Source: Rhizobium sp. WSM4643 (GTDB taxonomy: Bacteria > Pseudomonadota > Alphaproteobacteria > Rhizobiales > Rhizobiaceae). Taken from it: a DNA stretch of 64,000 bases. Shown piece by piece: positions 619-20,912 of this stretch (its first letter is position 1; the number at the start of each line of letters is the position of its first letter). A model generated the notes under the pieces. That model saw only the letters and a list, made by a program, of their open reading frames with translations, was not told the DNA's origin and searched no databases. The position numbers and the translations under genes are program-made. Location: contig NZ_CP104040.1 of NCBI RefSeq assembly GCF_025152745.1, positions 186,001-250,000 on the forward strand, read 5' to 3'.

Positions 619-646
619 AAAAAAACCGGTCGCAAAAGCAGACCGG
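619..646 (-). terminator. Intrinsic attenuator of the metZ leader
   Basis: Read on the minus strand, CCGGTC (641-646) pairs with GACCGG (626-631) around a loop rich in T, and seven T follow (619-625). This is a classic rho-independent terminator between the SAM-II aptamer and the metZ start. The upstream arm can pair instead with GACCGG at 654-659, giving an exclusive antiterminator. Confidence 0.85.
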
Positions 647-653
647 TTTCAAC

Positions 654-713
654 CCGGTCTTTTTAGCCACTTGTTTAACGTGGCTGCAAGCCGACCGGCC
701 AAATCACCACGGG
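654..713 (-). promoter_or_regulatory. SAM-II riboswitch (metA RNA motif)
   Basis: The minus strand reads CCCGTGGTGATTTGG, then CGGCTTGCAGCCACGTTAAA, then GTGGCTAAAAAG, which matches the SAM-II consensus. P1 is CGTGG (707-711) with CCACG (679-683). The pseudoknot P2 pairs CCGGTC (693-698) with GACCGG (654-659). SAM-II aptamers occur upstream of metA/metX/metZ in alphaproteobacteria. The 3' pseudoknot strand is also the 5' arm of the antiterminator, so SAM binding should release the terminator and switch metZ off. Confidence 0.93.
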
Positions 714-721
714 ATAATTCT

Positions 722-793: not shown

Positions 794-1888
794 ATGATGG
801 CTCGCGAAACGGGAATTCTGGCGGATCGCGCGATCTCCGCGCTGTTCGAAACGGGGCGTCTGATCTCCGAACGGGAGCTGGACCGCGACCAGATCCAGCC
901 GGCAAGCCTCGACCTGCGCTTGGGCGCCAAGGCTTTTCGCGTGCGCGCCAGCTTCATGCCCGGCCCCTCGCACCTGGTTGCCGACAAGCTCGACCGGCTG
1001 AGCCTGCATGTGATCGACCTCTCCGAGGGGGCGGTGCTCGAAACCGGCTGCGTCTATATCGTGCCGCTGATGGAGAGCCTGGCCCTGCCGGCCGACATGT
1101 CGGCCTCGGCCAATCCGAAGAGCTCGACCGGGCGCCTCGATATCTTCACCCGCGTCATCACCGATTACGCCCAGGAATTCGACAAGATCCCGGCAGGCTA
1201 TTCCGGCCCGCTCTATCTCGAAATCAGCCCGCGCACCTTCCCGATCGTCGTGCGCCGCGGCTCGCGCCTGTCGCAGATCCGTTTCCGCGTCGGTCAGGCC
1301 CTGCTCGGCGAGCCCGAACTGTTGAAGCTGCATGAAAGCGAGACGCTGGTGGCCAGCAAGCTGCCCAACGTATCAGGCGGCGGCATCGCCCTGTCGATCG
1401 ACCTCGCCGGGGACAAGGACGGCCTGATCGGCTATCGCGGCAAACATCACACCGCCGTCGTCGATGTCGACAAGAAGGCCGAGCACGACCTCTTCGATTT
1501 CTGGGAACCGCTCCACAGCCGCGGCCGCAACGAGCTGATCCTCGATCCCGACGAGTTCTATATCCTCGTCTCGCGCGAGGCCGTGCACGTGCCGCCGGAT
1601 TATGCCGCCGAGATGACTCCGTTCGATCCGCTGGTCGGCGAATTCCGCGTCCATTATGCCGGCTTCTTCGATCCGGGCTTCGGCCACGCGCCTGCCGGCG
1701 GACGCGGCAGCCGCGCCGTGCTCGAAGTCCGCAGCCACGAAGTGCCCTTCATCCTCGAAGACGGCCAGATCGTCGGCCGCCTCGTCTACGAACACATGCA
1801 GGAAAAGCCCGCAAGCCTCTACGGCTCCGGCCTCGGCTCCAACTACCAGGCCCAGGGCCTCAAACTCTCGAAGCACTTCCGCATCTGA
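794..1888 (+). CDS. dcd: 2'-deoxycytidine 5'-triphosphate deaminase, long (double-domain) form
   Basis: Deaminates dCTP to dUTP, feeding dTMP synthesis. The 364-residue product contains the DCD/dUTPase trimer motifs: PASLDLRLG near residue 36, ANPKSSTGRLD near 110 (substrate-binding Ser-Ser-Thr-Gly-Arg) and YLEISPRTFPIVVRRGSRLSQIRF near 145. A second DCD-like half follows (DEFYILVSRE, FDPGFG, QIVGRLVYE). Classical E. coli Dcd is about 190 residues, so this is the duplicated version common in Rhizobiales. ATG 794 follows GATGAGG; ATG 797 is the alternative. The gene diverges from metZ. Confidence 0.9.
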   Translation: MMARETGILADRAISALFETGRLISERELDRDQIQPASLDLRLGAKAFRVRASFMPGPSHLVADKLDRLSLHVIDLSEGAVLETGCVYIVPLMESLALPADMSASANPKSSTGRLDIFTRVITDYAQEFDKIPAGYSGPLYLEISPRTFPIVVRRGSRLSQIRFRVGQALLGEPELLKLHESETLVASKLPNVSGGGIALSIDLAGDKDGLIGYRGKHHTAVVDVDKKAEHDLFDFWEPLHSRGRNELILDPDEFYILVSREAVHVPPDYAAEMTPFDPLVGEFRVHYAGFFDPGFGHAPAGGRGSRAVLEVRSHEVPFILEDGQIVGRLVYEHMQEKPASLYGSGLGSNYQAQGLKLSKHFRI

Positions 1889-1947
1889 AGCGTTGCGTCA
1901 GGCGCGACTTGACAGCGGCCCCTATCTGTTGGAAATCTCGCTTCATC

Positions 1948-2021
1948 GCGGGTGTAGCTCAATGGTAGAGCAGCAGCTTCCCAAGCTGAATACGAGGGTT
2001 CGATTCCCTTCACCCGCTCCA
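1948..2021 (+). tRNA. tRNA-Gly (anticodon CCC)
   Basis: A cloverleaf can be drawn: acceptor GCGGGTG/CACCCGC, D-arm GCTC/GAGC with loop AATGGTA, anticodon stem CAGC/GCTG with loop TTCCCAA (anticodon CCC), T-arm AGGG/CCCT around TTCGATT, discriminator T and an encoded CCA (2019-2021). tRNA 3' ends often serve as integration sites, and the atypical five-gene cluster begins just downstream, but I found no duplicate of the tRNA 3' end in the window. Confidence 0.95.
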
Positions 2022-2255
2022 GCTGCCTTTCCAACCATGTCCAGCATCAGCGTGCCTATTGTCTCAGCATATGTACATGGGTTCGACCAACGGTCCTATC
2101 GAACCCCACGGTGAGGAGGCGGCCCCTAATCGCGCTGCCATAATTACTCGCGAGGCTCCGAAGACAAAAAGCCGGGTCGCTGGGGCAGATACCAAATCAT
2201 TTTACAGCAAGTCCTCATTAGAGGAGGCGCCTGCAAGCTTCGAACCATCGTCCGG
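2022..2255. other. Spacer between tRNA-Gly and the stator-like cluster
   Basis: 234 bases with no convincing gene, hairpin terminator or repeat. Short frames here have no ribosome binding site and low-complexity translations. This is the downstream boundary of the AT-richer cluster. Confidence 0.5.
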
Positions 2256-3284
2256 CTAGGGCCTCCGCAAGGCAATCTTCAAAATTCGGACTAGTAATGA
2301 AGCGCCAAGGAAAAAAATAATGCCCAACTGGCTTGTCTTCATCGCCATACTTATCTCTCCGGTAATCGGTCCTATAAGGGTAGCCTTTTGAAGGCTGTTG
2401 GAAATGTCGATGCCCCCGAGCACCCACAACGCTTCCCCCATTCCGAAAATCGTCCCCAAGAATCCAACGTATGGCACAAGGTCAACAACTGTTTCGGTAG
2501 CACTAATCGCGAAGAGTACTGTCGAGAAACCAAGTATCGAAAGCGAAATTTCGAAAGCGAAGACCAACATGCAAAAGACGCTCAGCACGACAATTAGCTG
2601 CTCGACTGGCCCTGAGATCAATCGAAGCCAGTAATAACGGTGTCCCCATGATGTTAAGCCGTTGCAGCTGTCTATCTCATTGGTAGTGGTCAGTGCGATT
2701 TCTTGAGCTTCCTCAGCTTTCAAATGGCTCGATTTCTGGCCGGACAATTGAGTAGCTAAAGCAGATAGTTCCGCTCGAAGGGGGCCCTTTGGTCGGTCGA
2801 ATGACACGCCCATATTATGGGAAAAGAACGCGCCGTAACTTTTGAAACTGACCAGCGGAAAGGTTTTTAGCGGGCCGAAACGTTGTACAGAGTCCAAAAG
2901 AAAGGGATTTGGGACGACTTCGAGAATGAGACCGTCTGGTCCAAGTTGGCTTTTGGCGGTCCATACTATGCGGGGAGTGGGCGCACCTACGGACGCCTTG
3001 AGTTCGCAACTACCGGCCTCGTAGTCACTCCGTTCTATAAACGTAATATCAGAAGCCGTTACCCAGGTGACTGTCTTAGTGATCGGCCTGATCGACTGGT
3101 AGTAGCTCCCCCCGCCGGACGTTGAGTAATAATAAATGAATCCACTTGTGATCCACCAGGCTATTGCGAACAATAAGGGAAAAATAAAGTACCGCAGGCC
3201 CGCAATTCGTGCGGATTTCCTCAGGGCAATCTTTATGCGGATCCATAGGTCATGGATACTTTCGGCTGCTTGATTAGCTCCCAC
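2256..3284 (-). CDS. MotA/TolQ/ExbB-type proton-channel membrane protein
   Basis: Last gene of the five-gene cluster, about 342 residues. A first membrane span (FPLLFAIAWWITSGFIYYY) is followed by an extracytoplasmic domain of roughly 160 residues and then at least three more spans. The C-terminal part carries the family signature VDLVPYVGFLGTIFGMGEA followed by ISMAMKTSQLGIIFFL, equivalent to the P..G.LGT..G and AL.TT..GL..A segments of ExbB/TolQ. Such proteins form the channel that converts proton (or sodium) flow into work with ExbD/TolR partners. GTG 3284, preceded by GGGAG inside the end of the previous gene, is preferred to the in-frame TTG at 3308, which lacks a ribosome binding site. 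The large external insert after span 1 is unusual. Confidence 0.75.
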   Translation of the reverse strand: MGANQAAESIHDLWIRIKIALRKSARIAGLRYFIFPLLFAIAWWITSGFIYYYSTSGGGSYYQSIRPITKTVTWVTASDITFIERSDYEAGSCELKASVGAPTPRIVWTAKSQLGPDGLILEVVPNPFLLDSVQRFGPLKTFPLVSFKSYGAFFSHNMGVSFDRPKGPLRAELSALATQLSGQKSSHLKAEEAQEIALTTTNEIDSCNGLTSWGHRYYWLRLISGPVEQLIVVLSVFCMLVFAFEISLSILGFSTVLFAISATETVVDLVPYVGFLGTIFGMGEALWVLGGIDISNSLQKATLIGPITGEISMAMKTSQLGIIFFLGASLLVRILKIALRRP

Positions 3285-4125
3285 AATAAAGCACTCCCAA
3301 TTGGTCAATTGATGTGTCGACCGAGAAAAGCGCTTCTATTCGTCGCTGGTATCCCGTCGGTGAACCTGAACGGATGAATGTGGTGTTAACCGCATCGAGT
3401 GTTTCGATGTTTTTTCTTGCCTCCGATTCGTCGCATAGCTCGAATTCTGTGAGCGTGTGGAGATATTCGTCCTCTATAGTTGCTCTCGCAGGCGGGCCGG
3501 GTACGAGCCAGCCTCGTGGCCCCAAAACGAGGATCTCCGCACTTTTGACGCTAGATAGTCCGGCCACATTCCACTGGAGAAAGTTTGAGGGATAATCTCC
3601 CGGAAACCCGACGACCTTACGAATTGATGTTAGTCTGCCCGGTGACATTGCGTAGCCAGTGACTGCCTGTCCGTCCTGAGCAGCTATCACGAGGTTGGGC
3701 GTACCAGCGTCGTCTTTGAAGAGCGACGCTATACAGAGCGGTCCAAGGTTAAGATTCGCGAAATCGCGCATAATACCAAGCACTTGTGGCTCTATCGTTG
3801 ATGGATTGAAAGTTGTGGTGGTGGGCCCTGTAGCGTCCGCTGTGGGAATGGGGTCAAAACCGAGGTGGACGCTACAGGACATATCCTTCTCAGCCGCTGT
3901 CCAAATTTGTTCTTGGGCGTTTGGAGTCCTTGCGATTGTGATTGGCTCGCAATCGATTGTAATAAGCGGAGGGATCGGCAAGCCTGTGCGCCACGTGTTG
4001 TGTTGGGCTAATGTCCACGAGTGAATAACATCGTCGCCAGTTAGGGGCGAGCAGGCCCAGACCGAACTAGTAAATAGTACCATTAATAGTGGTGCTATCA
4101 GGAAGCTTAAAATTCGCCTCTGCAT
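3274..4125 (-). CDS. Secreted cysteine-containing protein of the stator-like cluster, unknown function
   Basis: About 283 residues. It starts with a clear signal peptide (QRRILSFLIAPLLMVLFTSS, then VWA/C), so the mature protein is periplasmic or, if the cysteine right after VWA is lipidated, membrane anchored; the lipobox fit is poor. Six cysteines (ACSP, DCEP, SCSV, LCIA, LCDE, YCGS) suggest disulfides. No family recognised. ATG 4125 is nine bases from GGAG and is preferred to ATG 4134, which touches it. It overlaps the genes on both sides, so translational coupling with the channel and plug genes is likely. Probably an exported client or cap of the machine (inference). Confidence 0.6.
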   Translation of the reverse strand: MQRRILSFLIAPLLMVLFTSSVWACSPLTGDDVIHSWTLAQHNTWRTGLPIPPLITIDCEPITIARTPNAQEQIWTAAEKDMSCSVHLGFDPIPTADATGPTTTTFNPSTIEPQVLGIMRDFANLNLGPLCIASLFKDDAGTPNLVIAAQDGQAVTGYAMSPGRLTSIRKVVGFPGDYPSNFLQWNVAGLSSVKSAEILVLGPRGWLVPGPPARATIEDEYLHTLTEFELCDESEARKNIETLDAVNTTFIRSGSPTGYQRRIEALFSVDTSIDQLGVLYCGS

Positions 4126-4531
4126 GGCCCCCATCTCCTTCTAGGGTCACTCCTGCGCCGACTATAGCGAACTCGATAGATCGGATTTTCATTGGGACCA
4201 GTACGACCCGACTGACCTGCGTTGAAGCACTTGCCGCAATCGCAATCCCATCGAAAGTTTCCACCACGGTAAGGTCTTCCTCAGGGATTTCGTCTTCTCC
4301 CGCGAAGGCGGTCACGTGAAATTGCACAAGACGTGAGAGATCTATGCTGCTCTTTCCGGTCTTTTCGTAGAACGGAGTCTTGTCGAACGAGATCGAAATC
4401 ATCCCGTTTGATTTCGATGGTATTGCTGCGTATACCTCCTCGTCAGAAGGCTGAACGTATTGAAGTACGAAGAATACAATCGAAAGCATTATGAAAAAGT
4501 CCAACATAATGATTACGAGCGCTCTACTCAC
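4067..4531 (-). CDS. ExbD/TolR-like single-span protein (Asp version)
   Basis: 154 residues: a very short cytoplasmic N-terminus, one span (MLDFFIMLSIVFFVLQYV) and an external domain of about 120 residues. Asp11 at the start of the span sits where ExbD, TolR and MotB carry their proton-accepting Asp (pattern LxD followed by a hydrophobic run ending FF). GTG 4531 overlaps the TGA of the preceding gene (GTGA), with GGAG nine bases upstream. The external part does not obviously look like the usual ExbD fold. Predicted to plug into the ExbB-like protein encoded two genes downstream. Confidence 0.65.
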   Translation of the reverse strand: MSRALVIIMLDFFIMLSIVFFVLQYVQPSDEEVYAAIPSKSNGMISISFDKTPFYEKTGKSSIDLSRLVQFHVTAFAGEDEIPEEDLTVVETFDGIAIAASASTQVSRVVLVPMKIRSIEFAIVGAGVTLEGDGGHAEANFKLPDSTTINGTIY

Positions 4532-5340
4532 TCTGTTTCACTCCTTTTGCCATCTTTGATAGCGCGGAGATTTTCCGTTGTTATGTCAAAACCGGACGTT
4601 ATTTTGAGTCCAAATCGCCTCAGAGGGTTCTTTACTGGAAGGCGACGGGCGCTATCTTCATACAGCAGCCCTCCTAAGTCGGGTTCATCCATCTGCGACT
4701 TGTGATAGTCGGCAACATATGTCCTTTCCAAGTCAACATTCGTCCCGCGCAGCTTTAAGGTCAAAATGACGGGATGTGGGTACTCTAAGTCAGAGTCCTG
4801 ATGGCTAGAATCTTGATCCAAAGTACAGGGGCATAGAAAGACGGATAAATCAAAAGGTCTCTCTTCGGGCTCTAGTTCGCCGGATATCATAACATTATTA
4901 TCGACCTGGCCTTTATAGACTGTTGCAGTAAGTCCTTTGGTTGTTTTTACATAAGATCGGAATTCATCCAGGCCCGTCCCCGCAGCGCCGAATAAGTTCC
5001 TCAGCATCTTCCCTTCTAAGGAAACTTCCTCCGGCGGCATGTGCGGCGTACTTACGCCGGTCTCGAAGTGATACGGCCACGGGACCCAGGGAAGAGGGCA
5101 CCCTTGCTTTCCGCCCAGGGAGAGGAGCGCATCTCCAATTTGCACCAGGTCCACGTGGTAAGTCGTATTTTTTGCAGTCGAGATTTGAGAGATGTCGAGA
5201 AGCAGCGTTGCCTTTCCAACCCCAGACTTGGCGGACGAGTCGGACATCCCAGCGATAACATACTGGAGCATAAATAGCAGGCATAGAACAATAAATGCCT
5301 CTATTAATACCACGTTACCTTTTTTTCCACCGCCCGCCAT
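4528..5340 (-). CDS. Second ExbD/TolR-like single-span protein (Glu version)
   Basis: 270 residues: a short basic N-terminus (AGGGKKGN), one span (VVLIEAFIVLCLLFMLQYVI) and a large external domain. The span aligns by eye with that of the next gene: LIEAFIVLCLLFMLQYV against MLDFFIMLSIVFFVLQYV. Glu14 occupies the position of the conserved stator Asp. The two look like diverged paralogues that could form a heterodimer where TolR/ExbD form homodimers. The external domain has no family I recognise (a CPCTLD cysteine pair is notable). Nine bases separate it from the upstream gene, and it overlaps the next by four. Confidence 0.6.
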   Translation of the reverse strand: MAGGGKKGNVVLIEAFIVLCLLFMLQYVIAGMSDSSAKSGVGKATLLLDISQISTAKNTTYHVDLVQIGDALLSLGGKQGCPLPWVPWPYHFETGVSTPHMPPEEVSLEGKMLRNLFGAAGTGLDEFRSYVKTTKGLTATVYKGQVDNNVMISGELEPEERPFDLSVFLCPCTLDQDSSHQDSDLEYPHPVILTLKLRGTNVDLERTYVADYHKSQMDEPDLGGLLYEDSARRLPVKNPLRRFGLKITSGFDITTENLRAIKDGKRSETE

Positions 5341-5349
5341 CTGCGTGCT

Positions 5350-6708
5350 TCAGTAGCTGCCAGCGGTATATTGTCCAGGCTCAATACTTTCGATAATCGA
5401 TATCGGAGACTTCTTTCCCGCGAAGTCACCCTCAAACCTTAAGACAACATATCCTGACTTGGTTGTAAGCTCCCATTTATTAGCCGCCGTAAGATCGGTT
5501 AACTTCTCGGGAAGCTTCCAGTAGCCGCTTTGTTCAACAACGCCATCTAAAGCAATGCGGATGACTTCTTCCTTCGTGTCTCCACGTACCAAGACGAGCG
5601 ACTTAGTCGTTCTTGCGAGTAGCAGGTATATGTTTCCACCCGGCGCGCTAGGCTGCGCGAACACGAATTCAGGCTCCTTATATTTTTGCTTAAGGTCGTT
5701 GTCGTTTGCCGGCGCAGGGCTCTTAGCCGCCTCGCCTACTTTCGTCGAATCTGCAGAGCTTGCGCTTGGGCCGACTGCGGCAGTTTGGCCATCCTTCCCG
5801 GGTCCGCTTCCTTTATTTCCGTCGCCGGAGCCACCTCCGCCACTTCCGGCTACCATTGAAAGGCCAGTTGTTACGAGAGCCCATCCGTCAGCAATGTCGT
5901 AGCAAAATACAAGTACAAGCCCTGCCGCAACGAGGGCCAACCCAGCGACAAGAGCCCAGCTGTTTACGGCCTCCTTTGCTCCCTCTTCCTGCTTCTTCTG
6001 CTTTTGAGCGTCCTCTTTTTCCTTTTCTTTCTCTTTTTTTATTCTGTCGTGATCTTCCTTGCTAATCTTACTGTTTTTGAACTGTTCCTCGTTTGTTTTT
6101 AAGGCTTGATCGGCGTCCACAATCGTTTTGTCGAGAGCGGCAATATTCTGCTCAATCTTTGCTTTGGTCGCATCGTACTCAGCATAGCAGGCTTGGGCAT
6201 CTTGAGAGGCCTTTAGCTCTTCGGGCGCGGCTCCCTCGAGCTTGGTTGATGCCGTCGTGGTGCTATCAATTGCCTTGTTAGCGGCGTCGGCCTGAACGGA
6301 TATTACGGCTTCGCATCTCGTCCAAAATTCTGTTGGGAATATAGACTTGTATTGGCCTCTAGCAACACGATCACGTAGCTGGGCTAAGCTCTCCCTGCTT
6401 CGACTGAGGTTCTTCCGAGCCTGTTCAAGTTGTGCCCTTTTTTCACTGTTACTCAAAGGTGGCATAGGCTTCCCTTCGGCGCCAGCGGAGGCCTCCGGAG
6501 TAACCGTATTAAGGAGAGTCAAAATATCATTGACGACAGGATCTCCAACGTCGAATCCCTGCATAAACTCAGCAAGCTGGAGTTGAAACTTTTCGCCGAT
6601 AAACAATTTGAAAAACGCGTTGTCCTGAGTCTGCGGATGGGCTGTCGAGGTCAGAATAAATATGAAGGCAATAGTTGCTGACGCCAATTTCTTCGTATTC
6701 CAGGGCAT
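5350..6708 (-). CDS. Exported coiled-coil protein with internal membrane hairpin, first gene of stator-like cluster
   Basis: 452 residues. Order: signal peptide (KKLASATIAFIFILTSTAHPQ), an N-terminal region, a long charged coiled coil at about 75-235 (ending in a Lys/Glu run), two closely spaced hydrophobic segments (SWALVAGLALVAAGLVLVF and GWALVTTGLSMVAG), a Gly/Ser-rich linker near 285-330, and a C-terminal beta-rich domain. ATG 6708 has GGAGA six bases upstream; the in-frame TTG at 6723 lies before that site and is rejected. In Zorya the coiled-coil tail is fused to the MotA-like protein, whereas here a coiled-coil protein is a separate exported gene. Function unknown; an envelope-spanning scaffold is my inference. 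Confidence 0.65.
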   Translation of the reverse strand: MPWNTKKLASATIAFIFILTSTAHPQTQDNAFFKLFIGEKFQLQLAEFMQGFDVGDPVVNDILTLLNTVTPEASAGAEGKPMPPLSNSEKRAQLEQARKNLSRSRESLAQLRDRVARGQYKSIFPTEFWTRCEAVISVQADAANKAIDSTTTASTKLEGAAPEELKASQDAQACYAEYDATKAKIEQNIAALDKTIVDADQALKTNEEQFKNSKISKEDHDRIKKEKEKEKEDAQKQKKQEEGAKEAVNSWALVAGLALVAAGLVLVFCYDIADGWALVTTGLSMVAGSGGGGSGDGNKGSGPGKDGQTAAVGPSASSADSTKVGEAAKSPAPANDNDLKQKYKEPEFVFAQPSAPGGNIYLLLARTTKSLVLVRGDTKEEVIRIALDGVVEQSGYWKLPEKLTDLTAANKWELTTKSGYVVLRFEGDFAGKKSPISIIESIEPGQYTAGSY

Positions 6709-6730
6709 GACTAGTCTCCACAAAAAAATA

Positions 6731-6758
6731 CGAGTTTAAGGTGTGCAACCTTAACTCG
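6731..6758 (-). promoter_or_regulatory. Hairpin plus U-tract in the leader of the stator-like cluster
   Basis: Arms CGAG(T)TTAAGGT (6731-6742) and ACCTTAACTCG (6748-6758) enclose a five-base loop. On the minus strand the hairpin is followed by TATTTTTTT and then directly by the GGAGA ribosome binding site of the first gene. The shape is that of an intrinsic terminator lying between promoter and gene, so it may attenuate the operon. Upstream, 6759-6832 is very AT-rich and probably holds the promoter. Confidence 0.5.
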
Positions 6759-6912
6759 ACAGAAAGAATTTTCAACGAGAATCCTCTAACCAATTATAGT
6801 TATATTATATAGTATTACGTCTTAGAGATGTAATGAGTGAGACAAAGTTCTTATTTGTTCGGGGGGCGCTGGAGCGAACTCAAAACTGGATAAACTTGGG
6901 GGCAGGGTCAGT

Positions 6913-7090
6913 ATTGCCGATGCGCGATGATCAGGCTTCGGTCTTGCTGGATGATGTAGGTTTTCTCCACCTGGCGGCCGTACTGGTCGATGAAATCATG
7001 CGGGAAGGCGGAACCAACCGGCGATTTGGTGAGTTTGGTGCGCGGCTGGCCACTATAAGTGATGCTTCCGGGGTATGGGTTCGAGGCCCC
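6913..7090 (-). pseudogene. Decayed copy of the small lipoprotein gene at 14225-14503
   Basis: The minus strand encodes SITYSGQPRTKLTKSP, SAFPHDFIDQYGR and DRSLIIAHRQY, nearly identical to the intact protein, with DNA similarity running from about 6913 to 7090. An extra base near 7073 shifts the frame, the signal peptide and lipobox are gone, and a stop directly after HRQY removes the usual C-terminus (KPIRFFGD). No start or ribosome binding site remains. It marks one edge of the polysaccharide region. Confidence 0.8.
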
Positions 7091-7214
7091 GGCCGGCCGT
7101 TCGCCGCCTTTTGAAGGCGCTTCGCGATCTTTTATGAAAAGGGTTGCGCGCAGGAATCGGCGCCTACAAGGATACAGATGGCGCCTCGGCCGCGCGCAAC
7201 CCCTAGCTTCGCCT

Positions 7215-7724
7215 TTATCTGGTCTTACTGACGCTCGTCTCAATTCCCCCCAATTGAGAACTCACGTAGTCGCCATGGCGAAGCTTTGCGAATTCGTCGG
7301 TGGCTTGTGCCGGTGCGCTCTTGAAAACGTACCATTGACCGTCCGGTTCGCGTTTCTGATAGATCAGGCCGCCCTTCTTGCGGTGGCTGAAGCAGGTGAT
7401 TGCCGTCGCCGTTCCGGTCTTGGCGTGCCAGTCGGCGTTGAAGCAGAGTTTACCCGGTTCCGTGATGAACCAGCGGCCCGTGCCGAAGGACGGCGAGCCA
7501 TTTTCCCGAGACCAGGCGGTAAAGCGACGCGCCTTTGTGGAGAAGTAGCCGGCGCCGGCTTTCCACATCCAGGAATTCTGGTCGTAGAGCCGATAGATTT
7601 CCGCGCTGCTCATCGGCTTTGCGGTCTCTATCCCCTTCGGCTCATTGGTTCCGGCAGCGGACGCGGCCGTGGCGATACCGCTGGTCAGGGCCACGGCCAG
7701 GAGCATTTTTTGAAGCATGGACAC
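7215..7724 (-). CDS. DUF995-type secreted protein
   Basis: 169 residues with a signal peptide (MLLAVALTSGIATAASA). The mature part has the pattern of rhizobial DUF995 proteins: SAEIYRLYDQNSWMWKAGAGYFS, WFITEPGKLCFNADWH, CFSHRKKG and WYVFK. Two cysteines may pair. Function of the family is unknown, but it recurs beside exopolysaccharide genes. Last gene of the five-gene polysaccharide operon, 18 bases after the hydrolase. GTG 7724 has AAGGAA eight bases upstream; ATG 7718 is the alternative start. Confidence 0.75.
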   Translation of the reverse strand: MSMLQKMLLAVALTSGIATAASAAGTNEPKGIETAKPMSSAEIYRLYDQNSWMWKAGAGYFSTKARRFTAWSRENGSPSFGTGRWFITEPGKLCFNADWHAKTGTATAITCFSHRKKGGLIYQKREPDGQWYVFKSAPAQATDEFAKLRHGDYVSSQLGGIETSVSKTR

Positions 7725-7742
7725 GGTCAGGTTCCTTCTTGT

Positions 7743-8708
7743 TCAATTGATGCTTTCGCGGACGACCCGCCAGTCGGGGCGGCCATAGCCGTCCGGCCAC
7801 GGATAGACTTCGCGGTCGTTGAAGTAGATAACGGCGCTGAGCGCCGGGAACTGGGGATAGCGTTTCGTTACGCTCTCGGCCCAGTTTCGCACGTAGGAAT
7901 CGCTGCCTTCGTAGCCGAGTTCGGCAACCATGATGGGCTTGCCGTAACCGGCGACACGGGCGTATCCGGGCGCAAGGTGCTCGGCAAACGTCTGGTCACG
8001 GCCAGTCTTGTCCCTGTCGTATTGCTCCAGGCCAAAGACCGAGAGCCCGATGAGATCGACGACATCGTTGCCGGGATAAAAGGCTTGAAGCCCCTCATTG
8101 CCCTTCGGTGACCACATGTACTTGGCCGTCTTCAGGTGGTCTTTGCAGACCTCCACCATCCGGCGATAGGCCTTGGCATAATCGGCGCCCTGCCAATGCG
8201 ACCAGGAGAACTGGCTGTCGGTTTCGTCCATTTCCTGTCCCCAGCGAATGATGACCGGACTTTTCAGCGTGGCAGCAGTCGAGCAGACGGCGGCCATATT
8301 CGCATCGCGCGAACCGTCCAGGATGCTGTGCAGCAGTTCCTGCGGGGTTTGGCGCCAATCGCTCGACCAGGTCCAGGGCTCGACCGAGATCAGCAGGGTG
8401 CGGCCACGCGCTTGCGCATAATCGTCGGCGAGGGCGAGGGTGCGCAGATCGACATCTTCCCAGGGCAGGAAGAGGTGTTCGATCTTCGAATCGGACGAGG
8501 CGCCTAAATCTCCGTGCGGGTCATAGGCGCCGAACGTGATCGACTCCTTCGTGACAACAGGCATTTTGGTCGGCGGCGCAATGGACGATGTCGTCATTGC
8601 AAGCGGCTTCCCTTCGGCAAAGCTGCCCAGAGCGGGCGGCAGGACCGCGACTCCCGACAGCAGCAGGCCGGTTAACGACAATAGGGCTATTTTGGATGGG
8701 CTATGCAT
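7743..8708 (-). CDS. GH26-like glycoside hydrolase (endo-mannanase type), exported
   Basis: 321 residues from ATG 8708, which overlaps the end of the glycosyltransferase by eight bases. It has a signal peptide (SKIALLSLTGLLLSGVAVLP), then a TIM-barrel sequence with GH26 landmarks: ITFGAYDP, SVEPWTW, IIRWGQEMDE (likely acid/base Glu), MWSPKGN, and VAELGYE (likely nucleophile Glu). GH26 enzymes cleave beta-mannan, mixed-linkage glucan or xylan. Within an operon making an extracellular polymer, it probably trims or releases the product in the periplasm, as BcsZ does for cellulose (inference). Confidence 0.8.
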   Translation of the reverse strand: MHSPSKIALLSLTGLLLSGVAVLPPALGSFAEGKPLAMTTSSIAPPTKMPVVTKESITFGAYDPHGDLGASSDSKIEHLFLPWEDVDLRTLALADDYAQARGRTLLISVEPWTWSSDWRQTPQELLHSILDGSRDANMAAVCSTAATLKSPVIIRWGQEMDETDSQFSWSHWQGADYAKAYRRMVEVCKDHLKTAKYMWSPKGNEGLQAFYPGNDVVDLIGLSVFGLEQYDRDKTGRDQTFAEHLAPGYARVAGYGKPIMVAELGYEGSDSYVRNWAESVTKRYPQFPALSAVIYFNDREVYPWPDGYGRPDWRVVRESIN

Positions 8709-10608
8709 TGTGTAATTCCTCCACGCTCGGCCGCAACTCCGGTTGAGCGGCATCCGTTCTCAGTTGGATCTCCTCCGGAGCGGAAATCCATCGTGGTTTG
8801 AAGAAGATCGTGCGCAGGGCGGTCCCGCCCAGGCCCGCACCGGAGACGGCATAGCGCTCTTCGAACAGCTGAAGGCGGCCGCTGCCCCAGGCGAGTGCCT
8901 CGGCCGCGTCCTTTCCGCGCATGATGGTTGCAACCCCCGGCAGCGCGACGAGCGCAAGAAGCACGGTCGCCATCGCCGGACGGTAGAAACGCGGGGCCGC
9001 CGCAACCGTATTTTCCTTCGAATGGCGCCCGACGATGACCAACAGCAGCGCGCAGTAGATTGCCGCGTTCAGGATGGTGAAGAAGTAACCCCCCTTGGAG
9101 GCGCCGGCATGGCCGATTGCCAGGGCGGGCAATACGGCGATGAGCGCCAGCACAGCGTAAGGCGCCAGGACACGCACCGGCAGCAGATCGACTTCGGACC
9201 GCCCTTTCGGCGTGACGCGGAAATCGACGAAGGAGCCTGTCACAAAATCGTGCACCGCAGCCAGCGTGCCGGCGAGCGCCCAGGGCCAGCGCGCAAAGAG
9301 AAAGAGCATGCATTCCCAACTCAGGATCTTGGCGTCGTAGGGGCGGAACGAGCTGCTGGCGCGCCAGCGATAAGCCATCACCACGAGAGCGATAGAAAGC
9401 GGTGCGAAATGCGCCAGGAAATCGGGATAGGTCACCGTCACGAAGTTCTGGCCGCGCACGAGCGCGATGATCGGCAACGCAAACATGAGCAACATGAAGA
9501 ACGCAAAAAGCGGATACCAGAGTTGCGAAAAGAGGAACTGGAACTTGAGCCGGGGCGGCAGCCGGCCGACGAGGCTCGGCGAGTACCGCAACAGCACCAT
9601 GACCAGGCTGCGCGACCACTGGAATTCCTGCGTCACGAGATCGCTGAAGGTTCTCGGGCCGTCACCATGGGCGATGGCATCCAACGCATGCACACCCCGC
9701 CAGCCGCCGGCATTCATCATCAATGTCGTCGAATGGTCTTCAGCCAACTCCGGACCGAGGCCGCCGATCTGTTGGAGGGCGACGGTACGCACTGCGTAAT
9801 GCGACCCTATGCACAGCGGCGCCAGGCCGCCATTGTAACCGGCTTGGAGCGAGCCATGCATGCTGGCTTCGGCATAGAGCCTTCCACGTGCCGACCAGCT
9901 TTCGGAAGCGTTCTTGTCGCAAATGCTGGGGGCTGAGACATAGCCGACCTCTGGATCGGAGAACGGACGCAGCATGTGGAAGAGATAGTCGGGCGCGGGA
10001 ACATGATCCGCATCGAGTTGCGCCACGAAATCGTAGCGGCTGTAGCCGTAGTGGTCGTAGAAGAAGGCGAGGTTGCCTTCCTTGCACCGCGTGCGTCGGG
10101 GCCACGACGTCCGATGATAATCGGATCGCCCCTTGCGGGTTGAGACGAGGACCCCGTGCCCGGAGCACCAGTCGAGAGTCTCGGGGGAAGGGTCTTCGTC
10201 GGCAAGCCAGGTGTCGTGTTCCACCTCCTGGGCAAGCATTGCCAGCAGGGTTTCACGGACGACCGCGAAGGGTTCCGCCGGCGCCTTGGTCACGACCATG
10301 GCCACTCGACTGCCCGCCGGCAGGCGCAAGGGACCGTTCGGTCTTGCCGCCCGATAGAAGACGACGATGAAATAGGCCGGCAGAGCGGTAACCCAGGCAA
10401 GAACGAGGCTCACCGTAATCGTGCCGAAGAGATCGACGTGATGGCGCGGCTCCAGCCACCAGATCCAGAAATAGGCGAAGGCGCAGGCCCATACGGCCGT
10501 CAAGAACAGATATTCGGCCCGCCGATGTCCTGTGAGAACCGGGACAAGAAACGGCTCGTGCGAGGGTTCCGGAGCATGCGTCGCTTGGCTAATCGCAAGT
10601 TCGGTCAC
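8701..10608 (-). CDS. Family 2 processive glycosyltransferase, BcsA-like membrane protein
   Basis: 635 residues. Two N-terminal spans are followed by a GT2 catalytic domain with LDADHVPAP (DxD), LAEDHSTTLMM (base region) and QEFQWSRS (a variant of the processive QxxRW motif), then several C-terminal spans. This is the cellulose/hyaluronan synthase architecture: sugar transfer on the cytoplasmic side coupled to export. No PilZ domain is visible at the C-terminus. GTG 10608 overlaps the galE stop as GTGA; the longer in-frame extension to 10773 lies wholly inside galE and is rejected. Co-transcribed genes suggest galactose- or xylose-containing product. Confidence 0.85.
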   Translation of the reverse strand: MTELAISQATHAPEPSHEPFLVPVLTGHRRAEYLFLTAVWACAFAYFWIWWLEPRHHVDLFGTITVSLVLAWVTALPAYFIVVFYRAARPNGPLRLPAGSRVAMVVTKAPAEPFAVVRETLLAMLAQEVEHDTWLADEDPSPETLDWCSGHGVLVSTRKGRSDYHRTSWPRRTRCKEGNLAFFYDHYGYSRYDFVAQLDADHVPAPDYLFHMLRPFSDPEVGYVSAPSICDKNASESWSARGRLYAEASMHGSLQAGYNGGLAPLCIGSHYAVRTVALQQIGGLGPELAEDHSTTLMMNAGGWRGVHALDAIAHGDGPRTFSDLVTQEFQWSRSLVMVLLRYSPSLVGRLPPRLKFQFLFSQLWYPLFAFFMLLMFALPIIALVRGQNFVTVTYPDFLAHFAPLSIALVVMAYRWRASSSFRPYDAKILSWECMLFLFARWPWALAGTLAAVHDFVTGSFVDFRVTPKGRSEVDLLPVRVLAPYAVLALIAVLPALAIGHAGASKGGYFFTILNAAIYCALLLVIVGRHSKENTVAAAPRFYRPAMATVLLALVALPGVATIMRGKDAAEALAWGSGRLQLFEERYAVSGAGLGGTALRTIFFKPRWISAPEEIQLRTDAAQPELRPSVEELHNA

Positions 10609-11591
10609 GCGCGCGCCTCCAGTCCGAAGAACGGAGCCGCCGTCCGCACGATGGTTTCGAGGTCGGAATATCGAGGCTGGAAGCAGAGCGTCTCGCGGGC
10701 CAGGCTGGCGTCGGCGTAGAGGCTGGCCGGATCGCCCGGCCGGCGTGGATGGATGACGACCGGGACTTCGCACCCGGTCGTTTCCTCGATCACGCGCAGG
10801 ACGTCCCTGATGGAAAAACCCCGCCCGGTGCCGAGGTTGACAGTGAGGTTTGCTCCGCCTTTGGCAAGATGAGTGAAGGCCTGAACATGGGCGCGCGCGA
10901 GATCGGCGACGTGGATATAGTCCCTTATGCAGGTGCCGTCAGGGGTATCGTAATCATCGCCGAATATCTCCAGGTGCGGAATCCGGCCGGCCGCGGCCAG
11001 CAGCGCCCGCGGAATGAGATGGGTTTCCGGAACGTGCCATTCGCCAAGCTCGCCGTCCGGATCGGCTCCACAGGCATTGAAGTAACGCAGGGCAACATAC
11101 CGCAGGCCGTAGGCCGCCGCATAATCGGCGAGCATATGCTCGAACATCAGCTTGGTCTTGCCGTAGGGATTGATCGGAGCCTTCGGCAACGTCTCGTTGA
11201 TCGGCAGCACGGAGGGGACGCCGTAGACGGCACAGCTCGATGAGAAGATGACGTTCTGAAGCCCCGTCTGCCGGCAGGCATCGATAAGCGACAATGCACC
11301 GCAGACATTGTTGTTGTAATATTTCGCTGGGTTTTCCACCGACTCGCCCACGTAGGCCGAGGCGGCAAAGTGGATAACGGCATCGGGAGCATATTTCTCG
11401 ATGACCTCGATCAGGCATGACGAGTCGAGGACGTCACCTTCGACGAAGGGCCCCCAGCGCACGGACGAACGGTTTCCGGTCGTGAGATTGTCGTAGACGA
11501 CAGGCTCAATCCCCTCCGAGCGGAGGAGCTTGGCGGTGTGGCTGCCGATATAGCCGGCACCACCCGTGACAAGGACCCGGGGCGCATCCAT
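10605..11591 (-). CDS. galE: UDP-glucose 4-epimerase (EPS operon copy)
   Basis: 328-residue extended SDR. It has the Rossmann motif VTGGAGYIGSHTAK at the N-terminus, SSSCAVYG with the catalytic Ser, and YGKTK (catalytic Tyr/Lys), plus FNACGADPDGELGE and DGTCIRDYIHVADLARAH, typical of GalE. It interconverts UDP-glucose and UDP-galactose in the cytoplasm and presumably supplies the downstream glycosyltransferase. It starts one base into the stop of the preceding gene (TGATG) and ends in a GTGA overlap, so the operon is tightly coupled. A second epimerase gene lies at 62296-63330. Confidence 0.92.
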   Translation of the reverse strand: MDAPRVLVTGGAGYIGSHTAKLLRSEGIEPVVYDNLTTGNRSSVRWGPFVEGDVLDSSCLIEVIEKYAPDAVIHFAASAYVGESVENPAKYYNNNVCGALSLIDACRQTGLQNVIFSSSCAVYGVPSVLPINETLPKAPINPYGKTKLMFEHMLADYAAAYGLRYVALRYFNACGADPDGELGEWHVPETHLIPRALLAAAGRIPHLEIFGDDYDTPDGTCIRDYIHVADLARAHVQAFTHLAKGGANLTVNLGTGRGFSIRDVLRVIEETTGCEVPVVIHPRRPGDPASLYADASLARETLCFQPRYSDLETIVRTAAPFFGLEARA

Positions 11592-12637
11592 CAGACCGCC
11601 TCCAGTTCGCGTGCCGGACGGGTGAGAAGGCCATCGAAATAGTCGATCGTCTGACGCAGGCCGCTCGACAAGTCGATCTTCGGCCGCCAGTCGAGTTCCT
11701 GCATGGCAAGCGAAATATCGGGGCGACGCTGACGGGGGTCGTCAACCGGCAGAGCGCGGTGGATGATTTGCGACCGCGAGCCGGTCAATCCGATCACCTG
11801 CTCGGCCAGCTCCCGGATCGTGAATTCGCCCGGATTGCCGAGATTGACAGGCCCCGTCAGCGACGACGGTGAGGCCATCATGCGGACCATGCCGCCGATG
11901 AGATCATCGACGAAACAGAACGAGCGGGTCTGCGAACCGTCGCCATATATCGTGATGTCCTGCCCCGTCAGGGCCTGAACGATGAAATTCGAGACGACGC
12001 GGCCGTCGTCCGGACGCATCCGCGGGCCATAGGTGTTGAAGATGCGGATGATCTTGATCTCGACGCCGTGCGTCTTGTGGAAGTCGAAGAACAGCGTCTC
12101 TGCGCACCGCTTGCCCTCGTCGTAGCAGGAGCGCGGCCCGAACGAATTGACGTTGCCCCAGTAGCTTTCGACTTGCGGGTGGACGTTCGGGTCGCCGTAG
12201 ACTTCGGAGGTGGATGCCTGAAGGATGCGTGCGCCGGTGCGCGCGGCCAGCTCCAGAAGGTTGAGGGAGCCCAGCACGCAGGTCTTTGTCGTATGGATCG
12301 GATCGGCCTGATAATGCGGGGGCGATGCCGGGCAGGCGAGATTATAGATCTCGTCGACTTCCAGATCGAGCGGCTGGACGATATCGTGGGCGACGACATT
12401 GAAGCGATCGACCCGCTTCAGATGGACGATATTGCGCCGCATGCCTGTGGAAAAGTTGTCGAGGCAGATCACCTGGTGTCCGGCGGCCAAAAGCGTCTCG
12501 CACAGATGTGATCCGAGGAAGCCTGCGCCGCCGGTGACAAGAACTCTCTTGGGAGCACGAGATATTCCGGATGAATTATTTGCATCACCAGCCGAAGTTT
12601 GCACAGAGCGCGCACGAATCTTACCAAGATAGTTCAC
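11591..12637 (-). CDS. UDP-glucuronate decarboxylase (UDP-xylose synthase) family
   Basis: 348 residues, with a 30-residue N-terminal extension before [19 protein letters not shown] landmarks: [46 protein letters not shown] (YxxxK) and [10 protein letters not shown]. The family oxidises and decarboxylates UDP-glucuronate to UDP-xylose; dTDP-glucose dehydratases are the main alternative, but the [10 protein letters not shown] segment favours UXS. First gene of the polysaccharide operon; the divergent AraC regulator and a 353-base gap lie upstream. ATG 12637 follows GGGAGG. Confidence 0.85.
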
Positions 12638-12990
12638 GACTACCTCCCGTGTTTTCAGGTTTTGCTATGGGATATTCGGTATGTACTTCGCTATACCGCG
12701 AAATTAAGTCGTTAATTCATGCGAATATTTTGTTCGTCCGGTTTTTCTTTTGGAACGAACCGATGTTTATTTAGATACAGCTAAGAAAGGCAGTTGTCGT
12801 TATCTTCGCGTCCTGGAAATTATCGCTCCGTACATTTCGGAGCGAAAAGGAATATGATAAGCAACTCATGCAGGTGACTCTTCGGGCACTTCCGCTTTTT
12901 CAGACGGAGTTCTGCGGAGATTTCAGCCGCAAAAACAATTGCTTTTCTCAATTTCCATGGCTCGGTCGGGTTATGCGCTGGAGGAATTGG
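12638..12990. promoter_or_regulatory. Divergent promoter region of EPS operon and AraC gene, two inverted repeats
   Basis: 353 AT-rich bases with no supported gene. It contains CGGTAT (12677-12682) facing ATACCG (12693-12698), and CGCTCCG (12824-12830) facing CGGAGCG (12838-12844). Both are candidate operators, and the second, followed by AAAA, could also be a weak terminator. No clear -35/-10 pair could be fixed. Confidence 0.45.
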
Positions 12991-14139
12991 ATGACTACAG
13001 GGTCTGATTCCGACGATGATGCTGCCGCGGAACAGGAACGGCCGGCGCATATGGAGCGGCGGCGCTGGCCGCGTGAACCGGCCTTACGCAAGGAACGCCC
13101 ACCCCATGCCTCCCCTGCACTTGAGCCGCTGCGATTCTCGACGCAGGACCTGCCACCGGCAGAACAATTCCAGGCCTGGCGGGCACATATGGCGCCGCTC
13201 GTGGATGTTCATCTGCCGGAGGGAAAATCACCGGAAGACGGGTTCCTCGCGGAGCAGATCGGCTGGCACCTCGGCGATATCCTCATCGTCCAGCAACGCG
13301 CGCAGGCCCACAGATATGTCCGCGATCAGGCCATGCTTCGATCGAGCCCCATCGACCACTGGAACGTCGGCCTGCAGCTCAGCGGCCAAGCCTGGACCGA
13401 GGTCAACCGTCGTGTCACCGAGACCGGTGCCGGCGAGATACTTTTCATATCTGTCGGCAGCCCCTATCGCGGACGGATGACCGATACCGAAGCTTTGCTC
13501 GTGTTCCTGCCGTATGAGCTGCTGGCTCGCGATGCGAGCCTTCTCCAGAGCGCCGGCAACACGGTTCTTTCGGGTAGCCACGCCGAGTTGCTCACGGGTT
13601 ATCTCACGGGCCTCGAAACGAACCTCGGCAATCTGACGATAGAGGAAGTGCCCCGGATCATCCAAACCATCGGCGATATGGTCGTTGCGGGCGCCGCATC
13701 GTCCACAAGGACTGATACCGGTCAAAACCAGACCAACATGGGACTGATGGAGCGGGCGCACCGCTACGTTCACGTCAATCTCCATTCGGAAAACTTGACG
13801 CCGGACATGATGTGCCGCGCGTTGGGGATTTCGCGGACGCGGCTTTACCAGCTGTTTGAGGCGAGCGGAGGCGTGCTCAATTATATTCGCAAGCGGCGAT
13901 TGCTGCAGGCCTATGCCGATCTCAGCAATTCGGCCGACCACAGGCCGATTGCGGAAATCGCAGAAGCCGCCGGTTTCGAGGTCGCCGCCAATTTTACGCG
14001 CGCCTTCATCCACGAATTCGGACTGAGCCCGCGTGAGATCCGAAGGACGGCGGCAACCCAACAGCGGCCGGCTCCGGCCATCCGCTCCACGCGGCGTTAC
14101 GGAAAAACGATCGGTGATTGGCTGGCCCGGACGAGTTGA
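12991..14139 (+). CDS. AraC-family transcriptional regulator
   Basis: 382 residues from ATG 12991, which follows GGAGG; frames extending to 12868 add an unlikely N-terminus. A Pro/Arg/Glu-rich start leads into an AraC-binding-like domain (LPPAEQFQAWRAHMAPLVDV, HWNVGLQLSG, LVFLPYELLARD). The last ~110 residues hold the two helix-turn-helix motifs (MMCRALGISRTRLYQLFEASGG, then IAEIAEAAGFEVAANFTRAFIHEFGLSPREIRR). Divergent from the polysaccharide operon, so probably its regulator (inference). The effector is unknown. Confidence 0.85.
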   Translation: MTTGSDSDDDAAAEQERPAHMERRRWPREPALRKERPPHASPALEPLRFSTQDLPPAEQFQAWRAHMAPLVDVHLPEGKSPEDGFLAEQIGWHLGDILIVQQRAQAHRYVRDQAMLRSSPIDHWNVGLQLSGQAWTEVNRRVTETGAGEILFISVGSPYRGRMTDTEALLVFLPYELLARDASLLQSAGNTVLSGSHAELLTGYLTGLETNLGNLTIEEVPRIIQTIGDMVVAGAASSTRTDTGQNQTNMGLMERAHRYVHVNLHSENLTPDMMCRALGISRTRLYQLFEASGGVLNYIRKRRLLQAYADLSNSADHRPIAEIAEAAGFEVAANFTRAFIHEFGLSPREIRRTAATQQRPAPAIRSTRRYGKTIGDWLARTS

Positions 14140-14224
14140 TCTAACAAGTTTCAGGCGGATCGTCATCCAGGTGCTGTCGGGGTCCCGTCACCGCTCCATC
14201 TCCCGCAAACCACGCCGACCAGGC

Positions 14225-14503
14225 CTAATCCCCGAAGAACCGGATCGGCTTATATTGCCGATGCGCGATGATCAGGCTCCTGTCGGGCTGAATGATGTAG
14301 GTTTCCTCCACCTCTCGGCCATATTGGTCGATGAAATCATGCGGGAAGGCCGAGCCGGGCGGGGATTTGGTGAGTTTGGTGCGCGGTTGGCCGCTATAGG
14401 TAATGCTGCCGGGGATGGGTTCGAGGCCCGGTCCGCCGTAGCTGACGGTGTTGCAGCCCGCGAGAGCGAGCGTGCCGACGAGGCCGATGATTGCAGCTTT
14501 CAT
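14225..14503 (-). CDS. Small lipoprotein, conserved in rhizobia, unknown function
   Basis: 92 residues: signal MKAAIIGLVGTLALAGC with lipobox LAGC, then a short globular part with PHDFIDQYGREVEETYII and SLIIAHRQYKPIRFFGD. The start at 14503 is set by GGGAGG seven bases upstream; the in-frame ATG at 14509 is too close to it. A frameshifted, truncated relative lies at 6913-7090 in the same orientation. No known domain recognised. Confidence 0.75.
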   Translation of the reverse strand: MKAAIIGLVGTLALAGCNTVSYGGPGLEPIPGSITYSGQPRTKLTKSPPGSAFPHDFIDQYGREVEETYIIQPDRSLIIAHRQYKPIRFFGD

Positions 14504-14926
14504 GTCCATCCCTCCCAATGCCGTGGATAATATCACTCTACACCTCGCCGGATAGAGTTCACGACACGAATGCCCATGCCGCGCTTCAATCCTTCGGGAA
14601 GCGTTGCCGGGGATGCCGCGATCGAGCGGCTGGCGGGACGACATCCACCTGCTGATATTAGGGTGAAAATCCCGTTCCACCAGTCGCGCCGACGCATCCA
14701 TTGCCGAAACCGGTGCCGTCTGCTAGATCGGCATCGTCGAAAAAGGCAGGATCGGTTGAGGTAAGCCCGGTCCCTTCCATTGGAGCGTCAAGCGCGCTCT
14801 CACGGAAGCTCTGCTCCGTGCCATGGCACGAGAACCCGCGACGTGATCCGCATCAAGATGCGGGATCCCGGCGGCGTGCGGAGACGGCAAAAGGCAGTCC
14901 CGGGATTTTTTCGAACGGAGACTGTC
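14504..14926. other. Intergenic stretch without a supported gene
   Basis: 423 bases between the lipoprotein start and the VOC gene. I see only one short inverted repeat near 14844-14867 (GATCCGCAT facing ATGCGGGATC). Long frames on either strand here lack starts with ribosome binding sites and read as shadows. Confidence 0.4.
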
Positions 14927-15307
14927 ATGCGCTTGAACCACCTCGATTTCCACGTACCCGACATCGCTGCCACCGCGGATTTCTTCATCCGCCATTTCGG
15001 CCTGAGACTTAAGGATATGCGCGGCCGGAACGGTCTCGCGATCCTCGAAGACGATGCCGGCCTCGAAATCGTCCTCAGCCACGCAATCGCAAAATTCGGC
15101 ACCGCCAATCAGGTGGAGATCGGGCGCCGGACCTATCACATCGGCTTCATTCTGCCCGAAAGGGCGGATGTCGATGCGGTCCATGCCGGGCTTGCGGCTG
15201 CCGGTGCGACCCTGTCTGGTCCGCCGGCCGCCATGCGCGGCGGCTGGCTGTTTTATTGCACGGCGCCAGGAAACATCCTCGTCGAAATCGGCTGGCGGCC
15301 GGGTTAG
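14927..15307 (+). CDS. Glyoxalase/VOC superfamily protein
   Basis: 126 residues from ATG 14927, with CGGAG seven bases upstream. It opens MRLNHLDFHVPDIAATADFFIRHFG, the first beta-alpha-beta unit of a VOC domain, and the second half ends in NILVEIGWRP, with Glu at the usual metal-ligand position. His5 or His8 could be the partner ligand. One VOC module of normal length. Substrate cannot be predicted. No operon partner; RIME-type repeats follow. Confidence 0.75.
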   Translation: MRLNHLDFHVPDIAATADFFIRHFGLRLKDMRGRNGLAILEDDAGLEIVLSHAIAKFGTANQVEIGRRTYHIGFILPERADVDAVHAGLAAAGATLSGPPAAMRGGWLFYCTAPGNILVEIGWRPG

Positions 15308-15381
15308 ACGACACCCCAAAAGGAAAGAGCGGCCGCTGCCGTCCGGGGCCGAACCATGAGTATCAACCCGTCCTTCAGAGT

Positions 15382-15475
15382 AACGGGGCGAAGGGGTATG
15401 CCGCAACGTCTCGATTCCCTCTTCTCCCCAGCGGGGAGAAGGTGCCCGTAGGGCGGATGAGGGGGCCGGCGAAGC
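15382..15475 (+). repeat. RIME-like palindromic repeat
   Basis: It contains CTTCTCCCC-AGC-GGGGAGAAG and the flank GGTGCCCGTAGGGCGGATGAG, a family found about ten times in this window, always between genes. Its partner at 15603-15700 lies in the opposite orientation. Confidence 0.75.
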
Positions 15476-15602
15476 CGGTCTTTTCAACAAAGCCCATGCA
15501 GGTTTCGGCCGCGATGACCTCGTCTGACCGTATTCAGGGCGCTGGGAACTGGCGTTGCCGCCGGAGTACCGGAATAGATTCTACGTGAAGGATGTGCCGT
15601 GT

Positions 15603-15700
15603 GGCCCCCTCATCCGCCTGCCGGCACCTTCTCCCCGAGGGGAGAAGAGGGTACGCCGCGAGCTCTCCATTCCTTGCCGACCTCTCGCAGGCTGGTGAGC
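15603..15700 (-). repeat. RIME-like palindromic repeat, inverted partner
   Basis: CCCTCATCCGCCTGCCGGCACC followed by CTTCTCCCC-GA-GGGGAGAAG, in reverse orientation to the copy at 15382. It sits just beyond the stop of the chemoreceptor gene and could act as its terminator. Confidence 0.75.
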
Positions 15701-15743
15701 CATCGCCGCGAACCGGACAACCGCGCCTCATGCCTCTATCGGC

Positions 15744-17738: not shown

Positions 17739-18025
17739 GGAAATGTCACCCGATTGGCTGGGCGTGCTCGCGCGCCCGGTGATGTGAAATCAATTGTTGC
17801 AGAAAAAACGCTGCTTCAATATCGCGGTTTAGGGATTAGGTTTGGGCTGACGCTTGCATCATGCGATCGGCTGGCGGAGTCCGATGTCGTCGCAACAAAT
17901 AAAGGCGATATTCTTTAATTCCGCGCTAACAGAAGGCGGCGGATGACTGTGATTTTTAGGGGCTGACTTGTCGTCCAGCGCGTTGTGTCCGATGTGCGTT
18001 GATGGCTGCCCCTCACCCTAACCCT
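17739..18025. other. Region between the chemoreceptor gene and the first IS
   Basis: It holds the upstream region of the chemoreceptor gene and, from about 18009, the left end of a RIME repeat interrupted at 18026. No gene seen. Confidence 0.5.
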
Positions 18026-19399: not shown

Positions 19400-19425
19400 A
19401 CCCTAACCCTCTCCCCGTTCTGACG

Positions 19426-20733: not shown

Positions 20734-20912
20734 CGCCCCCCTTTATCGAGACGACGATCTCCAAACCGGCCCAACGAAAAATCATGCCCTACATCCATCG
20801 GCGACGCTCCCAAATCAAAACGTCGCCAAAACAATCATACAGCCCGCAGTAAAGGAATCCGACCCCCGCAAACCGAGTCAATCCGTCGCACCCACTTATG
20901 TATATGCCCTAG
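19426..20912 (-). mobile_element. IS4-family insertion sequence (element B), complete ends
   Basis: Inverted repeats start CTAGGGCATATACATA at 19426 and end with the complement at 20912. The 10-base direct repeat CGTTCTGACG flanks it (19416-19425 and 20913-20922). Removing the element and one repeat copy rebuilds a RIME hairpin, CTCTCCCCGT-TCTG-ACGGGGAGAG. Only 15 bases of RIME separate it from element A, apart from the duplications. The outermost CTA of the left end supplies the transposase stop codon. Length 1487 bases. Confidence 0.93.

Follow-up and report, generated by a model that had tools for sequence, protein, structure and literature searches.

A rare five-gene cluster at a tRNA-Gly site of Rhizobium sp. 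WSM4643: a candidate two-plug envelope motor

Individual residues of the channel protein ExbB and its partner ExbD have assigned roles. According to passages of PMC12905483 and PMC11890865, published motors of the 5:2 class have an acidic residue on the central dimer and a Thr/Ser ring. Here we describe a cluster of five genes, designated A to E, at positions 2256-6708 (minus strand) of a 64,000-nucleotide window from Rhizobium sp. WSM4643 (contig NZ_CP104040.1, positions 186,001 to 250,000; all positions below are those of the window). The cluster contains one channel gene and two plug-like genes. The same layout is reported for AglRQ/S of Myxococcus and for heterologous TolR-like pairs in parts of PMC9389320 and PMC12204202, so that "one channel and one plug", which the original prediction for this DNA had taken as the rule for known systems, does not hold for all of them. 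Heterologous pairs of vWA plug genes are also on record in passages of PMC12204202, together with TolQ-like genes that have heterologous TolR-like pairs and new transducers. The section of PMC9389320 on AglQ and AglS gives it as not known whether these form a heterodimer or homodimers. The island described here probably encodes one proton-driven stator motor of the 5:2 class, belonging to an undescribed lineage, with a mixed B/C plug and an output in the periplasm; "undescribed" means that such a lineage had no match in Pfam, NCBIfam, PADLOC, PHROGs or the literature listings. The open reading frames (ORFs), the family of E, the register of the acids in B and C, the near-invariance of the B helix, and the island setting support this reading.

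The five ORFs of the cluster, taken from the ORF listing, are real, intact, and tightly packed. Gene starts were picked by us according to the position of the Shine-Dalgarno sequence: ATG 6708 of gene A is preceded by GGAG, and ATG 4125 of gene D comes after AAGGAG. From A to E, the junctions are a gap of 9 nt (A/B) and overlaps of 4 nt (B/C), 59 nt (C/D), and 11 nt (D/E), in agreement with the arrangement first described. In the 59-nt overlap, at 4067-4125, gene C runs at its 3' end, in another frame, into the stretch of D that encodes the signal peptide. As also stated in the original prediction, the genes are AT-richer than their surroundings: the GC content is 0.475-0.521 and that at third codon positions 0.52-0.55, against 0.60-0.66 and 0.74-0.85, respectively, in six comparison genes at 794-17738. 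When the region was shuffled 300 times by mononucleotide, stop-free runs reached at most 265 codons in any frame. A, B, D, and E exceed this length and are therefore not chance ORFs; C is shorter and is supported instead by its position and its helix. Promoter and terminator scans gave a yield no higher than the shuffles, and no integrase match was found among the five genes. Taken together, the cluster is a real, intact, and very rare operon.

Gene E (2256-3284, minus strand; 342 amino acids) codes for a four-helix channel subunit, as judged from a Pfam match and a structure model. The first transmembrane helix (TM1) is followed by a periplasmic domain of about 165 residues and then by a C-terminal three-helix core of the MotA/ExbB type. 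The match to Pfam MotA_ExbB (PF01618), which is limited to residues 268-343, has a score of 23.8 bits against a cut-off of 22.9, and of 26.2 bits in a whole-genome search; the NCBIfam TolQ model gave an E-value of 0.16, far under its cut-off. The polar-ring positions Thr286 and Ser326 (in the 350-residue numbering of the longer ORF) align with the threonines of ExbB/TolQ and are unchanged in all three sequences compared. In a structure search with the model, the core was nearest to type II ZorA (PDB 8VVI; 1.9 Å across 93 residues), followed by TolQ, ExbB, and MotA, with 6ysl and 8brd among the matches. These results support the assignment of E, already made in the original prediction, as a channel of the MotA/TolQ/ExbB class that carries a large external insert. 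The insert has parallels, because passages of PMC12505986 describe non-flagellar family members with extraordinarily large periplasmic domains.

The compact three-helix channel core is thus common to E and to ZorA of the type II Zorya complex ZorAB. However, the core of E is C-terminal, with an extra N-terminal helix and a periplasmic domain before it, and the cytoplasmic tail, which is important in ZorA as stated in a passage of PMC11890865, is missing. E has no cytoplasmic domain, and its chain stops a few residues past the last helix. In this it also differs from MotA, with which the stator channel fold is shared but not the torque-generating cytoplasmic domain, and from ExbB and TolQ, which likewise have a PF01618 core with a polar ring and single-span partners carrying an acid in register. 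A PADLOC scan of the five proteins gave no match to ZorA-G up to an E-value of 1, and a search of the five genes against Pfam and NCBIfam gave none to TonB, TolA, TolB, or Pal. The absence of ZorC/D/E, TonB, and Tol-Pal genes from the cluster, noted earlier, is borne out among these five proteins. The TolQR of the host itself is located at a separate site of the 6.4-Mb genome (C1:3656438 and 3655904).

Gene B (4528-5340, minus strand; 270 amino acids) and gene C (4067-4531, minus strand; 154 amino acids) code for two plug-like proteins. The N-terminal helix of B is KKGNVVLIEAFIVLCLLFMLQYV with Glu14, and that of C is IIMLDFFIMLSIVFFVLQYV with Asp11. In the alignment of B with its relatives, 23 of the 26 residues at positions 6-31 are invariant, compared with 24 of the 239 residues after the helix. 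In the best ungapped placement, both Glu14 of B and Asp11 of C fall in the register of the ExbD/TolR aspartate. The score of this placement is weak when taken alone, as 19 of 317 control segments equal that of B and 5 of 317 that of C. These features support a plug-type helix in both proteins, its acid in register with that of ExbD, and to this extent the description of B and C as ExbD/TolR-like single-span proteins stands. Unlike the partners in ExbBD and TolQR, B and C are unlike each other and fail to match the ExbD/TolR family PF02472 in Pfam up to an E-value of 1; when the genome was searched with PF02472 up to an E-value of 0.1, TolR was the sole match. Nor was there a Pfam match of B or C to an OmpA-family domain, as expected for MotB, or to a wall-binding domain, as present in ZorB. 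TolR-like wall-binding domains are ascribed to AglQ/S in the relevant part of the review PMC9389320, and B and C resemble these proteins in gene layout.

The outer part of B, after the helix, is predicted with low confidence to be an immunoglobulin-like (Ig-like) β-sandwich; the predicted local distance difference test value of the model was 62.5, and the Ig-like matches were weak. The outer part of C consists of about 130 residues and is free of Cys. GldM bears Ig-like periplasmic domains, as B may do, and no other common feature with GldL-GldM was found. No GldM, ExbD, or OmpA-like chain was present among the 50 matches listed for the B model, which excludes none of them. Sequence matches in the PDB of C to ParA (E-value of 0.04) and of B to an F-box WD protein (0.58) were rejected as due to chance or composition.

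Gene A (5350-6708, minus strand; 452 amino acids) is probably exported. Its product seems to consist of a signal peptide, a charged helical or coiled-coil region of about 170 residues, a membrane helix at about 251-269, a disordered linker, and a C-terminal domain. This topology and the C-terminal domain were read from the sequence, as was a second membrane helix, with which the membrane segment probably forms a hairpin. Gene D (3274-4125, minus strand; 283 amino acids) codes for a putatively secreted protein with a signal peptide followed by Cys25, and contains six Cys in total. A hydropathy scan (cut-off of 1.6, 19-residue window) picked out a single N-terminal segment apiece in B, C, and D, a single internal one in A, and three helices of E (TM1, TM2, and TM4). 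Neither the signal peptide of A nor the second helix of its hairpin was flagged, and nor was TM3 of E, which was placed by the Pfam match and the model. None of A to D gave anything above the cut-off in Pfam or NCBIfam, and PADLOC and PHROGs gave only weak coiled-coil-type matches of A (in PADLOC, JetC2 with an E-value of 0.0011, LmuB with 0.1, and JetC3 with 0.63). These sub-threshold family matches, and a PDB match of A to a calcium uniporter (E-value of 0.046), were rejected as chance or composition. D had no match to families or PDB sequences.

Relatives of E and B are scarce. Among about 5.8 billion proteins, E had two non-self relatives and B three. These large-collection searches covered E (twice) and B, the latter with a single sequence only, and their word filter may miss distant relatives. 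The second search with E, using a three-row alignment, returned the same three proteins, with only the 7,998 best word-sharing candidates scored. In genome samples that overlap, E was found in its own genome only (1 of 100, 1 of 397, and 1 of 385 genomes), and B in 1 of 148 genomes of the genus and 1 of 377 of the order. D was found in its own genome alone among 394 genomes of the family; one further match, in G1301, scored 20.6 bits at 25% identity, was interrupted by six TAG stops in frame, and was judged to be chance. For E and B, searches of genome_contigs (84,980 species) and viral_contigs gave pattern hits but zero confirmed relatives. No match was obtained with tblastn for all five against plasmids, or for E and B against phages. 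A second locus with the five genes was not seen in the genome samples searched with E and B.

Islands habitually sit at tRNA genes. The cluster adjoins a tRNA-Gly(CCC) gene (1948-2021, plus strand), as had been pointed out. The gene dcd is present in 60 of 60 genomes of the genus; the match is unbroken through the tRNA-Gly in 52 of them, and in the other eight it starts again at the tRNA, within about 6 kb along that contig, by our count. In three relatives (L004, L005, and L009), the equivalent of 7083-7095 comes next to the tRNA, either at once or with at most about 70 bp in between. Compared with these relatives, the window therefore holds additional DNA from 2028 to about 7085. The far border of the cluster is marked by a probable IS3 remnant of about 49 bp (6867-6915), which is similar to plasmid DNA: the matches (H21-H23) are 92-94% identical, and 2 of the 10 plasmid records listed carry the name IS3 family transposase. 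Next to it, 6912-7100 (minus strand) is a truncated duplicate (86.8% identity over 189 bp in a self-comparison) of a small gene at 14225-14701, which we read as lipoprotein-like. The two copies of the 3' part of this gene (6912-7100 and 14253-14439) flank a polysaccharide block. We read the duplicated copies as the trace of stepwise insertion at the tRNA-Gly. In another relative, L100, 6912-8835 is matched without a break, with the truncated copy already joined to the polysaccharide block, and 9 kb of other cargo lies between this copy and the tRNA; the five genes thus take the slot that is filled there by other cargo.

The 11 kb past the tRNA were surveyed in 20 relatives, and matches longer than 150 bp were counted. 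The polysaccharide block followed at once in three; in six, no more than about 450 bp preceded the core gene at 14225. Other cargo of 2.4-9 kb preceded window-like sequence in L100, L105, L109, L112, and L115, five relatives had no window match within the 11 kb, and L117 joins the core further on. Tyrosine integrases gave four matches among the 52 ORFs scanned of the 139 in the survey. The ORFs adjoining the tRNA in L101, L106, L111, and L114 are 89-94% identical to the first integrase, with differing cargo in each. L114 carries genes for a type I restriction enzyme, specificity subunit, and methyltransferase, and L115 a BrxH/SngC-like helicase. In L101, a protein of 737 amino acids (6159-8372 of that locus) matches mad3 over about 90 residues (2.9e-37) and may be a new variant of a defence component. 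Ten hotspot proteins were scanned singly, and five were without a match at 1e-20; further cargo is non-defence and includes efflux families and dehydrogenases, among others. The tRNA-Gly site is a hotspot of integration, and defence genes make up some, though not all, of its cargo. An exact 12- or 14-base repeat of the tRNA end (1997-2027) is absent from both strands of the window.

Two other features of the window should be mentioned. A SAM_alpha riboswitch (82.7 bits) lies at 642-720 (minus strand), close to the window edge. At 18027-21100, the matches of several relatives jump from about 17,930-18,026 to about 20,910-21,190, and this interval holds two ORFs that we read as transposase-like (18083-19201 and 19426-20733).

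In the motor as we propose it, E would form the ring, with its C-terminal three helices as the channel core and the extra N-terminal helix and periplasmic domain as a crown outside the membrane. The N-terminal helices of B and C would be inserted as a mixed central plug, and Glu14 and Asp11 would carry protons past the ring of Thr/Ser residues in E. As ring and plug rotate against each other, the outer domain of B, which is perhaps Ig-like, would be moved, and A, whose long helical part is membrane-anchored, and the secreted, Cys-rich D might relay this movement to the outer membrane or the cell wall. The stoichiometry, the sharing of one plug by B and C, the proton as the ion, and the roles of A and D are the inferred parts of this scheme. 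Since E has neither a cytoplasmic domain of the MotA type nor the ZorA tail, and A to D are apparently outward-facing, the work would be done in the periplasm. The two-plug design itself has precedent in the heterologous pairs cited above, as far as the passages on AglQ/S and TolR-like genes go.

One result weighs against a fixed E-B pair. The contigs listed for relatives of E (the longest being 4.02 Mb, with another of 9.9 kb) are not the ones listed for relatives of B (1.0, 1.7, and 3.4 kb), and lend no support to the conserved neighbours by which the original prediction was to be judged. This counts only mildly and is not a refutation, because B was searched with one sequence and the word filter can miss distant relatives. 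The same result favours the explanation that there is no single machine, and that a divergent channel was gathered in a mobile segment with unrelated small membrane and secreted proteins. So does the lack of any confirmed relative of A, C, or D in the searches run with them. We regard this as improbable in view of the four tight junctions, three of them overlaps, the uniform composition, and the presence of acid-bearing N-terminal helices in both small proteins in the same operon as a channel core.

As to purpose, a surface or uptake role and a defence role each fit; the two corresponding explanations refine the motor reading, and the likelihood given to either is not exclusive of it. That the motor is a private machine for surface or uptake functions, comparable to TonB-ExbBD, Tol, or Agl, is a serious possibility although short of an even chance. 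It would then pull on a partner in the outer membrane or the wall, with A or D as transducer, and might serve, for example, symbiosis or polysaccharide export. All outputs seem to face the periplasm, the neighbouring genes include a GH26 enzyme, a GT2/cellulose-synthase-type transferase, and two sugar epimerases, and TolQ-like genes with TolR-like pairs and new transducers are described in parts of PMC12204202. Nevertheless, none of the five matches TonB, TolA, TolB, or Pal, and three relatives have the polysaccharide block but not the five genes, as does L100, where the block lies behind the 9 kb of cargo; this indicates that block and cluster were not acquired as one unit. It seems rather unlikely, on the other hand, that the cluster is a Zorya-like anti-phage system with an envelope effector, in which the motor would act as a sensor, or be set off, at the envelope, and A and D would block injection, with no cytoplasmic nuclease. 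Type II ZorA is the nearest solved structure to the channel core, the cargo is patchy, rare, and AT-rich, and the variable hotspot has integrases in 4 of 20 relatives and the restriction, helicase, and mad3-like genes of L114, L115, and L101. Against this, PADLOC gives no ZorA-G but only the weak matches of A, E is without the tail that the cited passage of PMC11890865 calls important, and the hotspot carries non-defence cargo as well. A more specific version, in which a mixed-plug envelope motor with an Ig-like output powers an outward mechanical and nuclease-free barrier against viruses or mobile elements, is speculative and quite improbable.

If E, B, and C are indeed in one complex, the two-plug motor would offer a natural and compact example of a stator whose two plug subunits differ. 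It would add to the 5:2 motors an outward-acting design that has neither the MotA cytoplasmic domain nor the ZorA tail. The operon, at 4.45 kb, is small enough to be transferred and tested whole in a laboratory strain.

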